DNA from: Bacillus sp. FJAT-27245
GTDB taxonomy: Bacteria; Bacillota; Bacilli; Bacillales; Cytobacillaceae
Assembly (NCBI RefSeq): GCF_001273955.1
Contig: NZ_LIGI01000001.1
Span: forward strand, 3,184,296 to 3,247,174
Direction: 5' to 3'
DNA length: 62,879 nt
Shown: piece by piece, positions 47,692 through 62,879 of the stretch
How positions within the stretch are numbered: position 1 is the stretch's first letter
How the letters are laid out: each line of letters starts with the position of its first letter
The notes under the pieces: model-generated
Told to the model about the DNA's origin: nothing
Seen by the model: only the letters and a program-made list of their open reading frames with translations
The model's database searches: none
Program-made: the position numbers and the translations under genes

Positions 47692-48186
47692 ATGTATTGT
47701 CCGCGACCAACACAGGTTTTGCCTGCCATTGTCCATCCAACGCAGTGCTGCGTAACGAATTCTTTCGAGAATGTCATCCAGCCGCACGTCCATCCATCGC
47801 ATACAACCAATGTCCATCACACAAACATCGAGCATACGCACCACTTTACGCACACCCAATCCTTTGTGAATGAGGCATCCGTTACTGATCTTGGACCGGT
47901 GCCAGGCCCGCCTCCCGGTCCAACAGTCGCTGGGGCGTATATGCCTCCTGCCGCACCAGGCATGATGGGACCAGGCATGATGGGACCAGGTATGATGGGG
48001 CCAGGTATGATGGGACCAGGAATGGCCGCTCCAGGGATGATGGGTCCGGCACCTGCTGTAGCTGGCGCATACCAGCCGGCCACGCCCAACATGATGGCTG
48101 CTCCAAACATCGCGCCTACCGGTGTTGCCGGTGCTTATTCCGGAATGCCAATGGGTGGCTATAAAAAAGGCTGCGGCTGCAGATAA
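47692..48186 (+). CDS. cotD: CotD-like spore coat protein with Met/Gly/Pro repeats
   Basis: A 164-residue protein. The N-terminal half has the CotD signature: RPTQVLPAIVHPTQCCVTN, then a histidine-rich stretch HVHPSHTTNVHHTNIEHTHH. The C-terminal half has repeats of GPGMM (four to five near-identical units at about 88-115) and ends in KKGCGCR. CotD is an inner spore-coat protein made late in the mother cell. The methionine-rich extension is not part of the classic CotD. AGAGGGGA precedes the ATG; followed by a terminator at about 48202. Confidence 0.88.
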   Translation: MYCPRPTQVLPAIVHPTQCCVTNSFENVIQPHVHPSHTTNVHHTNIEHTHHFTHTQSFVNEASVTDLGPVPGPPPGPTVAGAYMPPAAPGMMGPGMMGPGMMGPGMMGPGMAAPGMMGPAPAVAGAYQPATPNMMAAPNIAPTGVAGAYSGMPMGGYKKGCGCR

Positions 48187-52400: not shown

Positions 52401-52636
52401 GGTTCATAAATCTAGTGAAACGGTTCATAAATCTAGTGAAACGGTTCATAAATCTAGTGAAACGGTTCATAAATCTGCGAGACGGTTCATAAATCTGCGA
52501 GACGGTTCATAAATCTACGAGGCGGTTCATAAATCTGTGAAACGGTTCATAAATCTGTGAAACGGTTCATAAATCTGCGAGACGGTTCATAAAACTGTGA
52601 AACGGTTCATAAATCTTCGAAACGGTTCATAAACGG
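52401..52636. repeat. Tandem repeat, 12 units of 20-21 nt
   Basis: Units start with GGTTCATAAA at 52401, 52422, 52443 and 52464 (21 nt apart), then every 20 nt from 52484 to 52624. The consensus is GGTTCATAAATCTRYGARAC. Junctions form a small palindrome TGAAACGGTTCA. No open frame runs through it. It lies between fdhA and the histidine phosphatase gene; the last unit is truncated. Confidence 0.93.
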
Positions 52637-59516: not shown

Positions 59517-59912
59517 ACATGATTCCGCCTTTCCAAGCAGCTCAATTATTAAGGATTTTCTTTCGCTTCACGCAATCCAATTTTAAATTAAATGGGTTGG
59601 ACACAAATTAAATGATAGGCGATTTTTCTATACAAGCAAACAGGCATTATTCAAAACGACCGTCTATTTTCACTTTGCCGGCAATTTTTTAAAAATTGGT
59701 AACAAAATTGCCTGTTCTTCCGTCTATGTAAGGGTTGTGTACCGCGTTACATAAATTCCACCGGAATTCCCCTTTTTAAAGTTTTTTTCCGATTCCTGCC
59801 GTAAAGTCTGCCAGCCCTTGGAAAATAAGGTACACTAATAGAGTGGAAGTTTTTAAAATGGGAGTTTCCATCTTTTTTTCCTGAAAAACAATAAATGCGG
59901 AGATGCTCGTTT
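59517..59912. other. Intergenic region between rbsK and rodA
   Basis: 395 nt between two divergent genes with no plausible small gene. CCGTCTAT occurs twice (about 59661 and 59722). A -10-like TACACT with weak upstream signals lies near 59831 and may belong to rodA. Nothing else is clear. Confidence 0.4.
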
Positions 59913-61076
59913 ATGGATAAATCACAACGTAATTATTTTGATTTCACGCTCTTGCTGCTTATTTTCCTGTTTATGGTTGTAAGCTGCATTGCAATTTACA
60001 GCGCCCAAAAATATTCGCCATATGGCGTTAATTTCGTACTGCTGCAAGTCCGCTGGTATGTAATTGGGCTTGGTGCCTCTGCCTTTGTGTATTTTTTTGA
60101 TTTTGACCAGATAAAAAGAATATCGCCTTATGCCTACATATTTGGTGTTTTGGTCCTAATTGGCCTGTTTCTGGCGCCGGAAACGATTGCCCCGAGAACG
60201 AAAGGTGCAAAGGCCTGGTTCGAAATTCCGAAGGCAGGCTCGATTCAGCCTTCGGAATTCATGAAGCTTTTCCTTATTCTATTCCTCGCAAGGGTGATTT
60301 CAAACCATAATGACAAATACCTTGACCGGACTTTGCAGACAGATTTTATGCTTCTCGGCAAAATCGCGGTTGTGGCTGCATTGCCGCTCGCGTTCATTTT
60401 GATCCAGCCTGATGCCGGTACAGCGATGGTTGTCGTTGCGATTGTTATTGGCATGTCGTTTATTTCGGGAATCAATTGGAGGATTATTGCCGTTCTGGGA
60501 GGAGCGGCAGCCTTGATAATGGCCATTCTTGTGTACATTTATCTTGAAGTGCCTGATTTATTGCTGCTCGTCCTCGATCAATATCAGTTGAACCGGATTC
60601 ATTCGTGGCTTGATCCATTCGAGGACATGCAAAACACCTCTTATCAGTTAGCATACTCGATATTGGCCATTGGTTCTGGCATGATGTATGGCAAAGGCTT
60701 CAATGCATCCCAGGTAAATGTGCCCGAAGCCCACTCGGATTTTATTTTTACAGTAATTGGGGAAGAGTTTGGTTTCTTCGGGGCGAGCCTTGTTATTTCG
60801 CTTTACTTCATCTTGATTTACCGGATCATTGTTATTGCTCTCAGGAACAAGGGCCCTTATGAAAGCTTGATTGCCACCGGTGTCATCTCGCTTTTGACAT
60901 TCCATATTTTCGAAAACATCGGCATGGTCATTGGGCTTGTTCCGATGACCGGAATTCCGCTTCCATTGATTAGTTACGGCGGAAGCTCTTTGCTGGGGAC
61001 CCTGATTTCACTATCGCTTGTCCTGAATATCTCGGCGAAAACGAAAAAATATATGTTTTCTGAAGACGATGATTGA
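59913..61076 (+). CDS. rodA: SEDS family glycosyltransferase RodA
   Basis: A 387-residue membrane protein with ten helices. The SEDS family polymerises lipid II into glycan strands during elongation. Family hallmarks: KGAKAWFEIPKAGSIQPSEFMKL, LIQPDAGTAMV, HSWLDPFEDMQNTSYQLAYS (large extracellular loop with the essential Asp), EAHSDFIFTVIGEEFGFFG and PLPLISYGGSS. It resembles RodA more than FtsW or SpoVE by the N-terminal part. The ATG at 59913 has CGGAGA upstream; an ATG at 59895 is less well placed. Confidence 0.9.
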   Translation: MDKSQRNYFDFTLLLLIFLFMVVSCIAIYSAQKYSPYGVNFVLLQVRWYVIGLGASAFVYFFDFDQIKRISPYAYIFGVLVLIGLFLAPETIAPRTKGAKAWFEIPKAGSIQPSEFMKLFLILFLARVISNHNDKYLDRTLQTDFMLLGKIAVVAALPLAFILIQPDAGTAMVVVAIVIGMSFISGINWRIIAVLGGAAALIMAILVYIYLEVPDLLLLVLDQYQLNRIHSWLDPFEDMQNTSYQLAYSILAIGSGMMYGKGFNASQVNVPEAHSDFIFTVIGEEFGFFGASLVISLYFILIYRIIVIALRNKGPYESLIATGVISLLTFHIFENIGMVIGLVPMTGIPLPLISYGGSSLLGTLISLSLVLNISAKTKKYMFSEDDD

Positions 61077-61157: not shown

Positions 61158-61388
61158 TCAGAGCGGTGGGTAGATTGGTGTATCAACTGACAGTGGTGGG
61201 TAGATTGGTGTATCAACTGACAGTGGTGGGTAGATTGGCGTATCAACTGACAGTGGTGGATAGATTGGCGTATCAACTGACAGTGGTGGATAAATCGGCG
61301 TTGCGGCTGCCGTAGATGATGGTGCAGCACCGGCCGCAAACAGGCTAAACGCGAAAACAGAGCAGAGAATGATAAATGCTTTTTTCAT
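61158..61388 (-). CDS. Secreted multi-repeat peptide precursor (putative pheromone)
   Basis: A 76-residue precursor. Residues 1-22 form a signal peptide (KKAFIILCSVFAFSLF, then AAGAA). After a short spacer come four copies of TPIYPPLSVD (30-69) and a fifth cut to TPIYPPL at the C-terminus (70-76). Cleavage would yield several identical short peptides, probably TPIYPPL or a close variant with SVD as linker. The gene starts 12 nt after the TPR regulator, with GAGGAGG in the gap, so they are co-transcribed and probably coupled. This layout, receptor then secreted peptide, is that of RRNPP quorum-sensing pairs such as NprR-NprX and Rap-Phr, but those precursors usually carry one or few copies. 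Confidence 0.82.
   Translation of the reverse strand: MKKAFIILCSVFAFSLFAAGAAPSSTAAATPIYPPLSVDTPIYPPLSVDTPIYPPLSVDTPIYPPLSVDTPIYPPL
61161..61301 (-). repeat. In-frame 30-nt tandem repeat in the peptide gene
   Basis: Four units of 30 nt plus a final 21-nt unit encode TPIYPPL(SVD). Differences between units (for example ACA/ACG, TAC/TAT, ATC/ATT, CCA/CCG) are all synonymous. Because the unit is a multiple of three, all frames stay open and produce spurious overlapping frames on both strands. Confidence 0.92.
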
Positions 61389-61400
61389 TGAAATTCCTCC

Positions 61401-62621
61401 TCAAGTCATTTTATTTAAATAATGGACAGCCTGCTCGAATTTTTTTTCTCTGGTAAAATAGTCTGCAAGCAATTTATAGAAGTGTGCGAGATCATCTTTA
61501 TGCTCTTTGCCTTCTTCGAGTAGTGGAATCACTTTAGATTCAAGATATTCAAATGAGGCTGGATCATCAGCATCAAGCATCAAATAAAACGTACTTAATA
61601 ATAGATACTTTTTGCTGTCAAGCTTGTCTGCCAAGTCGAATACCTCCACAAAGCACCTCTTTGCACCGCTAGCATCACCTTCTACAAACTTTGTTTCGCC
61701 AAGAGTGTTTAAAGTAACCAGATAATTAAATCCTTTCTCTTGTTGCAACGAAAGGCTTTTTTCAAAATAATAAATAGCTTGTTCGGCATTCTTCCTTTTC
61801 TTTTGCAACAGGCCCATATTATGGTAAGCATATGGGAGCAAATCTTCCTCATTCAAAAGCTCGGCATTTCGAATCAGATGCTCAAAAGATGCTGAAGCTT
61901 CCTCATAGATATTTGAGTGTGTGTAGTTTATTCCAAGCAACATTAACGTATGAAGAATACGCCTGAAATTATGCTGCTCCATAAAATGCTGGAGCGCCTT
62001 TTTACCAAAATAGATGGCATAGCCGGATTGAAGCGTATACCCTTTGGCGAATGCCCTGTGGTAAAGGAATTCACCAATGTTGATTCCGCCGGCTTGTTCC
62101 GCATCAAGCCTTTCGAGAATTGCGTCTGCTTCATGGTATTTTGCCTGGCGCATAAAATGGATGCTTGTGAAATAATCGAATAGCGTTCGTTCCTGCCGTG
62201 AAAAATTCTTCAAATGCTTCCTGAGCAATTCCTGCTGGGCTTCGGCTTCACGATCGTCTCCTTTAAAAAGCAAATACCTGTATTTATACAGTTCATATGT
62301 ATAAATGTGCGATGAAAACGGGATTAGGCTGCCAAGCTCCTGGAGCCGGGAATAAACGCGGTCAGCTTCCGCCTTAATTTGGAATGTCATTTGGTTATCG
62401 AATTCATCCAGCAGGGCTTTAATTTCTTCGTCCTTGCCGTCCACATCTTCAATTTTGATGCCAAGCCTTTGAAGCAGCAAGTCGACTGTTTCTTTATTCC
62501 CCTCTTTTGCGGTGTGTTCAATCTTGCTTAAATGTGGGATTGAGCAAATCCCTTCGGCAAGCTCTTTTTGCGTCATCCTCCTTTGTGTTCTGTAATACTT
62601 GATCAAAGGTCCAAAATCCAC
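61401..62621 (-). CDS. HTH + TPR transcriptional regulator (RRNPP type)
   Basis: A 406-residue regulator. Residues 1-60 form an XRE helix-turn-helix (LIKYYRTQRRMTQKELAEGICSIPHLSKIE). The rest is helical with TPR-like repeats, clearest at about 240-400 (LLPYAYHNMGLLQKKRKNAEQAIYYFEKSL, then LVTLNTLGETKFVEGDASGAKRCF). This is the NprR/PlcR/Rgg architecture whose TPR domain binds a re-imported signal peptide. The downstream gene encodes a secreted repeat peptide, the likely ligand. The GTG at 62621 has GGTGAG upstream; TTG or GTG starts 9-12 nt earlier are possible. A TATAAT lies upstream near 62673 with no clear -35. Confidence 0.85.
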   Translation of the reverse strand: MDFGPLIKYYRTQRRMTQKELAEGICSIPHLSKIEHTAKEGNKETVDLLLQRLGIKIEDVDGKDEEIKALLDEFDNQMTFQIKAEADRVYSRLQELGSLIPFSSHIYTYELYKYRYLLFKGDDREAEAQQELLRKHLKNFSRQERTLFDYFTSIHFMRQAKYHEADAILERLDAEQAGGINIGEFLYHRAFAKGYTLQSGYAIYFGKKALQHFMEQHNFRRILHTLMLLGINYTHSNIYEEASASFEHLIRNAELLNEEDLLPYAYHNMGLLQKKRKNAEQAIYYFEKSLSLQQEKGFNYLVTLNTLGETKFVEGDASGAKRCFVEVFDLADKLDSKKYLLLSTFYLMLDADDPASFEYLESKVIPLLEEGKEHKDDLAHFYKLLADYFTREKKFEQAVHYLNKMT

Positions 62622-62853
62622 TAGACTCACCAACCGTTTTCTACTACTCTATCACGAAAAATGGGAAATTATAAACATTTATTCAAAATTATCGGATATT
62701 TCGTATAAATATGATGCTAAACGCCCAAAACCATCCGGCTTTTTTGCAGGATGGACTGGGACTAAAGGATTATTTTACACGCGGGAAACCGAAACCGGAT
62801 GCATAGTCATCGCCTGTTCCAGCGCCTGTTCCGCCTTTGATGTCATATAATTT

Positions 62854-62879
62854 CGCGCGATTTTGCAGTTCAGCGCGAA
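62854..62879. other. Hairpin at the window edge
   Basis: TTCGCGC...GCGCGAA forms a 7-bp stem at the end of the window, just after a TATAAT-like box (about 62845). From 62622 to the end I see no complete gene; a second hairpin CATCC...GGATG lies at about 62732-62753. The element continues beyond the window. Confidence 0.35.

Follow-up and report, generated by a model that had tools for sequence, protein, structure and literature searches.

Here, we analysed a stretch of 62,879 nucleotides from Bacillus sp. FJAT-27245 (contig NZ_LIGI01000001.1), referred to as the window, and followed up a putative regulator-peptide pair located near its end. The locus comprises the following features:

61401..62621, minus strand: receptor/regulator gene (GTG start at 62621, stop ends at 61401; 406 aa)
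61158..61388, minus strand: putative pheromone precursor gene (ATG at 61388, stop ends at 61158; 76 aa)
61165..61301, minus strand: 30-bp tandem array coding for the peptide repeats (Tandem Repeats Finder)
62770..62879, minus strand: subtilase (Peptidase_S8) gene, 3' end only, upstream of the receptor gene; remainder beyond the window
62727..62754, minus strand: terminator-like hairpin, CCATCCTGC - A6 loop - GCCGGATGG - TTTT (read by eye)

An earlier note on this DNA had described a 406-residue protein with HTH and TPR domains and, 12 nt further on, a 76-residue precursor in which five copies of TPIYPPL alternate with SVD spacers, and on re-reading this description proved exact. The 12 nt lie between the receptor stop codon and the precursor gene, and GAGGAGG precedes the precursor ATG. 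The precursor begins with a Sec-type leader, as judged by hydrophobicity, after which all five heptapeptides and all four spacers are exact copies; for the underlying DNA array, Tandem Repeats Finder gave a period of 30, 4.6 copies, 96% matches and a score of 232. The GTG start codon of the receptor gene is replaced by ATG in 6/7 and by TTG in 1/7 of the other genomes in the genus alignment. Since the terminator-like hairpin, also present in the alignment of the eight genomes of the genus, sits between the subtilase and receptor genes, receptor and peptide are suggested to form a transcript separate from the subtilase. The subtilase (Pfam E 4.4e-52) was followed to its full extent in the same genome (L160:266-1564), with one residue being X. 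On the other flank, a convergent FtsW-family gene is located at 59895-61076 (Pfam E 1.4e-94).

Further tandem repeats were noted elsewhere in the window, namely a 20-bp repeat at 52401-52633 (11.5 copies, 92% matches, unit GGTTCATAAATCTGTGAAAC) and mutually overlapping 15-, 30- and 45-bp repeats at 47955-48051 (unit ACCAGGCATGATGGG).

Domains of the receptor and relation to NprR

The receptor matched HTH_3, TPR_12, TPR_2 and TPR_1 above the Pfam cut-offs. HTH_3 is N-terminal and covers residues 7-59 (24.3 bits vs. a cut-off of 23), the TPR region is C-terminal, and with 406 aa the protein lies inside the range of 250-500 aa for RRNPPA receptors. NCBIfam also offered labels such as PorW/SprE and FimS; these reflect generic TPR similarity, scored far below the cut-off and were rejected. 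The nearest solved structures were those of NprR, 4gpk (E 2.7e-25, residues 58-402) and 5dbk, and a profile search gave 1.2e-27; 98 of 342 aligned residues are identical to 4gpk, and single positions may be misaligned. As in NprR-NprX of the B. cereus group, an HTH and TPR receptor is combined with a peptide gene directly downstream and an adjacent protease gene, which there is nprA (PMC4147580). Unlike the NprX peptide SKPDIVG, TPIYPPL is uncharged, proline-rich and present in five copies, and the neighbouring protease is a subtilase instead of a neutral protease.

The same genome encodes a second HTH-TPR receptor (L008:1501-2893) with 31% identity. A small gene overlaps it and encodes a product with the C-terminal sequence TDPIQPPTIPHNQSLL; the two perhaps constitute a related pair.

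Conserved pairing, peptide copies and co-change

For comparison, a set of 112 orthologues was assembled, with 98 from the family; sampling of the order, of one further family and of the class contributed the others, 7 and 7. The orthologue threshold was 300 bits; 28 loci fell below it, two of which nevertheless carry similar peptides, L108 (DPIRPPI) and L017 (DPIQPPTIP). Within the family, 100/193 genomes matched the receptor at E <= 1e-40, with a gap in E-values between 1e-116 and 3e-70, and the receptor was found in 8/8 genomes of the window's genus. Named relatives with 68-91% identity are Bacillus sp. FJAT-27445, Neobacillus piezotolerans, N. notoginsengisoli, Bacillus sp. EB01 and Bacillus sp. 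FJAT-27225; TPIYPPL is likewise encoded by N. piezotolerans. A short TPR match in Prevotella (L006) was rejected as a relative. The search for mobile elements yielded one partial match among plasmids (75% covered, 29% identical) and none among phages at E 1e-20.

An adjacent peptide frame on the same strand with the core x-P-I-x-P-P-x near its end was detected in 109 of the 112 orthologues by a script which itself demanded P-[IV]-x-P-P and allowed overlapping and distant starts. This count includes a locus where a frameshifted remnant holds the motif (L055) and two with broken receptors (L104, L157). Of the remaining three, L067 has the motif but runs off the contig, L074 ends at the contig edge, and for L153, whose receptor frame is open, no peptide was found. 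In 4/109 loci, over 25 nt separate the receptor stop from the peptide start. As a control, 94/98 family loci were positive vs. 0/98 on the reverse strand and 0/1,960 shuffles. Under a strict rule, by which the peptide ends in P-[IV]-x-P-P and starts within 60 nt of the receptor stop, 100/112 loci passed vs. 3/11,200 shuffles. These counts show that the two genes are conserved together as a unit in the genomes compared. The earlier note had proposed a quorum-sensing pair, a reading with which receptors consistently lacking a linked peptide would have been at odds; the peptide next to 109/112 receptors, together with the receptor-peptide co-change described below, supports it. Multiple copies occur in only 8 loci; the other 101 are single-copy.

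Some neighbouring elements were noted apart from the pair. An S8 gene lies near several distant receptors (L142, L144-L148), and a TTTTCCCAATTAACAG element is found 200-540 nt downstream of L109, L142, L143 and L145-L148, where no peptide gene was recognised. In one genus (L064, L077, L083, L095), a small protein (e.g. MGTISMDIDELLEET...TRHW) is encoded downstream of the pair, with TTGGGAAAATTTT before its gene.

Across the 109 peptides, positions 2-3 are always PI and positions 5-6 always PP. Position 1 is H in 44, P in 28 and D in 10; position 4 is L in 39, Q in 33, Y in 16 and H in 13; position 7 is V in 56, I in 29, L in 13 and A in 9, with two others there and various further residues at positions 1 and 4. 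The eight genomes of the genus carry 5, 3, 5, 2, 3, 3, 3 and 2 copies (26 in total). As they form a single clade on the receptor tree (support 1.0), the amplification looks like one gain with later changes in number. Within the eight arrays, pairwise comparison of the cores gave 114 synonymous vs. 0 non-synonymous differences (198 and 516 sites), and 39/56 core codon positions vary, every one of them synonymously; the spacers differ between species in length and sequence. Together, this shows at the codon level that each heptapeptide copy is selected as a peptide, beyond mere homogenisation of DNA. In several genomes, an A-x-A-like signal-peptidase site was seen by eye directly before the first copy, e.g. 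APASA-HPIHPPL, and in 7/8 arrays the stop codon comes directly after the last copy, the remaining array having an extra Ile. The heptapeptide unit thus appears to be framed from both sides, by the leader site and by the stop codon.

Six loci from three lineages encode short peptides of 11-22 residues in which no hydrophobic leader is clearly recognisable:

L139-L141: MNMKAPILPPVT, MKKAPILPPVT and MKRKAPILPPIV
L084: MEKRRASNPPIQPPV
L103: MNKTIQTAMVPIQPPI
L092, a less clear case: MTQFFQTVVSRSASLGPIWPPI

For the analysis of co-change, residue changes were placed by parsimony on one FastTree receptor tree and shared branches were scored, using 108 receptors, many from closely related genomes, and 349 columns; L074, L104, L153 and L157 were dropped. 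As a control, 114 receptor columns were treated as mock peptides, and corrected p-values are the tail p multiplied by 349. Peptide position 1 co-changes with Y339 (corrected p 0.0005, z 6.1), position 4 with G194 (0.0017, z 5.3) and position 7 with M157 (0.0015, z 5.5). The maximum z over the control columns was 4.7, below the values of all three peptide positions. Second-best columns, not significant alone, were H374 for position 1 (corrected p 0.072) and G121 for position 7 (0.29). At position 7, 8/11 co-changes pair V to I in the peptide with I to M in column 157, or run exactly the other way. In 16/16 receptors with Gly at column 194, position 4 is Y, W, H, D, F or R and never L or Q; Y and H at this position also occur with Ser at column 194. 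In the 4gpk alignment, G121 matches R126 of NprR, and G194 adjoins the residue aligned with H201 of NprR. The spacings of the co-changing columns are 36, 37 and 35, in keeping with the TPR period. Together with the order of the columns, they would suit corresponding sites on consecutive TPR helices, the arrangement to be expected for a peptide that runs along the TPR groove and points its C-terminus at the N-terminal repeats. Because receptor and peptide residues co-change, the data support that both evolve together and that the peptide may be recognised directly.

Linked subtilase and candidate DNA element

An S8 gene adjoins the receptor in 77/112 loci, located upstream on the same strand in 68, divergently in 6 and downstream in 3. 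In the other 35/112 loci it was not found in the flanks examined (mostly 1.0-1.5 kb), and it was found elsewhere in only 1/10 searched genomes with receptor but no adjacent S8. The linked protease is therefore not obligatory.

A conserved element, TTGGGAAAw, stands before the linked subtilase gene. To analyse its position, upstream stretches of S8 were taken from 37 of the 68 loci with upstream S8, and the same stretch from three loci lacking S8. The motif TTGGGAAA was located 93-113 nt before the S8 start in 34/34 stretches with a placed start (shuffles: 65/7,000), some of which have a second site further up. Three further S8 stretches contain the motif but their start was not placed, and the three stretches from S8-less loci contain neither S8 nor motif. 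Within the window's genus, the element precedes S8 in 7/7 aligned genomes (of 8). Around the pair itself, its location varies with that of the protease gene: it stands before the receptor in 0/68 loci with upstream S8, in 6/6 with divergent S8 and in 28/35 without S8, and after the peptide gene in 3/3 loci with downstream and 18/68 with upstream S8. In total, 34 loci have it before the receptor and 23 after the peptide gene, where 0.7 and 0.9 were expected; 6/35 S8-less loci have it on neither side. Most orthologues also have TTGGGAAA within the receptor gene; these matches were treated as coding sequence and excluded from the counts. A dyad-like stretch before the receptor gene that was spotted by eye in the genus alignment had no evident counterpart in the other genera compared and was dropped.

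Unlinked S8 genes served as a further control, comprising one case with and two without receptor. The single unlinked S8 of a receptor-bearing genome carries the element; S8 was found in 2/18 searched genomes without receptor, and neither gene has the element within 300 nt. The cases are few, but they lean the way that binding of the element by the receptor would predict. The receptor may switch the neighbouring protease gene through TTGGGAAA as a candidate operator, an assignment that is indirect. For NprR, the recognised DNA sequence was said to need further work in the available text of PMC4147580.

Across the genomes of the genus, the motif occurs in excess (284 vs. 111 matches for the reversed pattern), hardly so in two of the eight (18 vs. 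13 and 24 vs. 19). Among 30 loci examined of the 284 matches, 14 were intergenic; among positions drawn at random, the intergenic share was 39% in these stretches and 15% in the window. Other genus genes preceded by TTGGGAAAAT encode two subtilases (L168, L172), a processed acidic surface protein (L181) and a similarly starting protein (L192). The window contains no exact WTTGGGAAAATW site, and one-mismatch sites numbered 5 vs. 4.9 expected. The indication of a genome-wide regulon is weak, and the local control is not convincing.

Proposed mechanism and place among tandem pheromones

Different explanations were weighed for the locus. Repeated, proline-rich secreted proteins can look like small structural proteins, and the repeat protein might have a structural or cell-wall role, or be the precursor of an antimicrobial, and merely lie beside a TPR regulator. 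This is highly improbable in view of the 101/109 orthologous peptide genes with a single copy, of the six relatives whose peptides without clear leader are too small for a structural role, and of the co-change between peptide and receptor residues. A strictly bifunctional NprR, which as peptide-free dimer inhibits Spo0F and as peptide-bound tetramer activates transcription, would agree with the closest solved structures, the same domain order and a protease gene adjacent as nprA is. For NprR, D107, Y118, E188 and Y223 were reported as required for sporulation inhibition and R126 as essential for peptide binding (PMC4970707, available text). In the 4gpk alignment, where single positions may be shifted, the Spo0F-inhibition residues correspond to P, K, I and H of the window receptor and the dimer residues N407 and Y410 to V and L, and of the peptide contacts R126, W167, H201, N306 and D309, which correspond to G, Y, Y, N and V, one of five is kept. 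Since the residues for Spo0F inhibition and dimer contact are lost in this alignment, the pair was not classed as a bifunctional NprR, and this reading is considered quite unlikely.

A closer competitor, although still rather unlikely, is that the subtilase acts solely in maturation, is solely a target, or has neither role, with TTGGGAAA belonging to another regulator of exoprotease genes. The tandem precursor Phr105 is matured in B. subtilis by NprE, Bpr and WprA (PMC11343458), and the element keeps a fixed distance from S8 and also precedes two other subtilases of the genus. However, the element still stands before the receptor in 28/35 loci without S8, which is explained most simply if the receptor binds it, and the two S8 genes of receptor-less genomes lack it within 300 nt.

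Overall, the locus is probably a chromosomal quorum-sensing pair of the RRNPPA type whose receptor resembles NprR, and we consider this the best explanation of the selected peptide copies, the co-change and the element before the subtilase as a whole, together with a putative cycle of export, cutting, import and binding. In this cycle, the precursor would be exported by Sec and cut by a subtilisin-type protease after each Leu, a favoured P1 residue of subtilisins. Several other bonds of the precursor are probably shielded by prolines. Aminopeptidases would then trim the fragments and stall at the X-Pro N-terminus, where trimming by these enzymes stops, and TPIYPPL would be the re-imported form. 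After uptake by the oligopeptide permease (Opp), the peptide would bind the receptor, which would act at TTGGGAAA sites, with the subtilase gene first. Extra copies would give more signal per transcript. Cutting after Leu would need Leu at position 7, and it is found there in 8/8 multi-copy vs. 5/101 single-copy precursors, an association that represents one clade. More tentatively, and possible rather than probable, one receptor lineage might keep xPIxPPx with precursors ranging from leaderless 11-mers over Sec peptides with one copy to a five-copy polyprotein, the subtilase being both switched by the receptor via TTGGGAAA and needed for the Leu cuts, so that release would be autocatalytic.

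Yeast alpha-factor precursors also contain several identical short pheromones in one secreted precursor; this likeness is an analogy only, as the receptor is unrelated. Among bacteria, the earlier note had regarded the tandem-copy precursor as unlike PapR, NprX and most Phr precursors, but such precursors are already described in PMC9765709 and PMC11343458. In the NprR subfamily, up to six identical pheromone copies occur and repeats were present in 17/17 over-long propeptides, their processing being called a mystery in the available text (PMC9765709). The pair therefore varies a known theme and is no new kind. For a two-copy Phr, processing was shown in a study that examined two phage Rap-Phr systems, where the internal copy of tandem Phr105 needs exoproteases, WprA among these (PMC11343458, available text). 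Like Phr105 and the NprR-subfamily repeats (PMC9765709), the array studied here combines identical copies and short spacers in one Sec precursor. Phr105 differs in that its two ERPVGT copies are spaced by LKLA and its Rap receptor has no HTH. Here, all eight genomes analysed from one genus are multi-copy and all other orthologues found are single-copy. As to the view that no described family has this peptide, the core letters HPIQPP, HPIHPP, PIYPPL, HPILPP, DPIYPP and PIQPPI were found in one unrelated paper among those searched, and the supplements of PMC9765709 and PMC10075063 may list the family; the lineage itself turned out to be widespread and otherwise single-copy, with amplification in one genus.

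Leaderless communication peptides were described with RopB-type receptors (PMC10518010), and the peptides of six relatives resemble them in lacking a clear leader. Unlike RopB, a receptor of the Rgg side, those studied here resemble NprR, and the window precursor itself has a hydrophobic leader. Leaderless peptides with NprR-like receptors were not found in the available text of PMC9765709, PMC10075063, PMC10518010 and PMC12700828. One survey could assign a peptide to only 40% of NprR proteins (PMC9765709, Table 2). As searches asking for a secretion signal would miss leaderless genes of 11-16 codons, such genes hint at part of the reason for this low share.

In this family, one pheromone occurs naturally in single-copy, multi-copy and leaderless versions, together with one receptor lineage. 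As the pair is also linked to a putative processing protease and a candidate operator, processing, specificity and output may be compared side by side.
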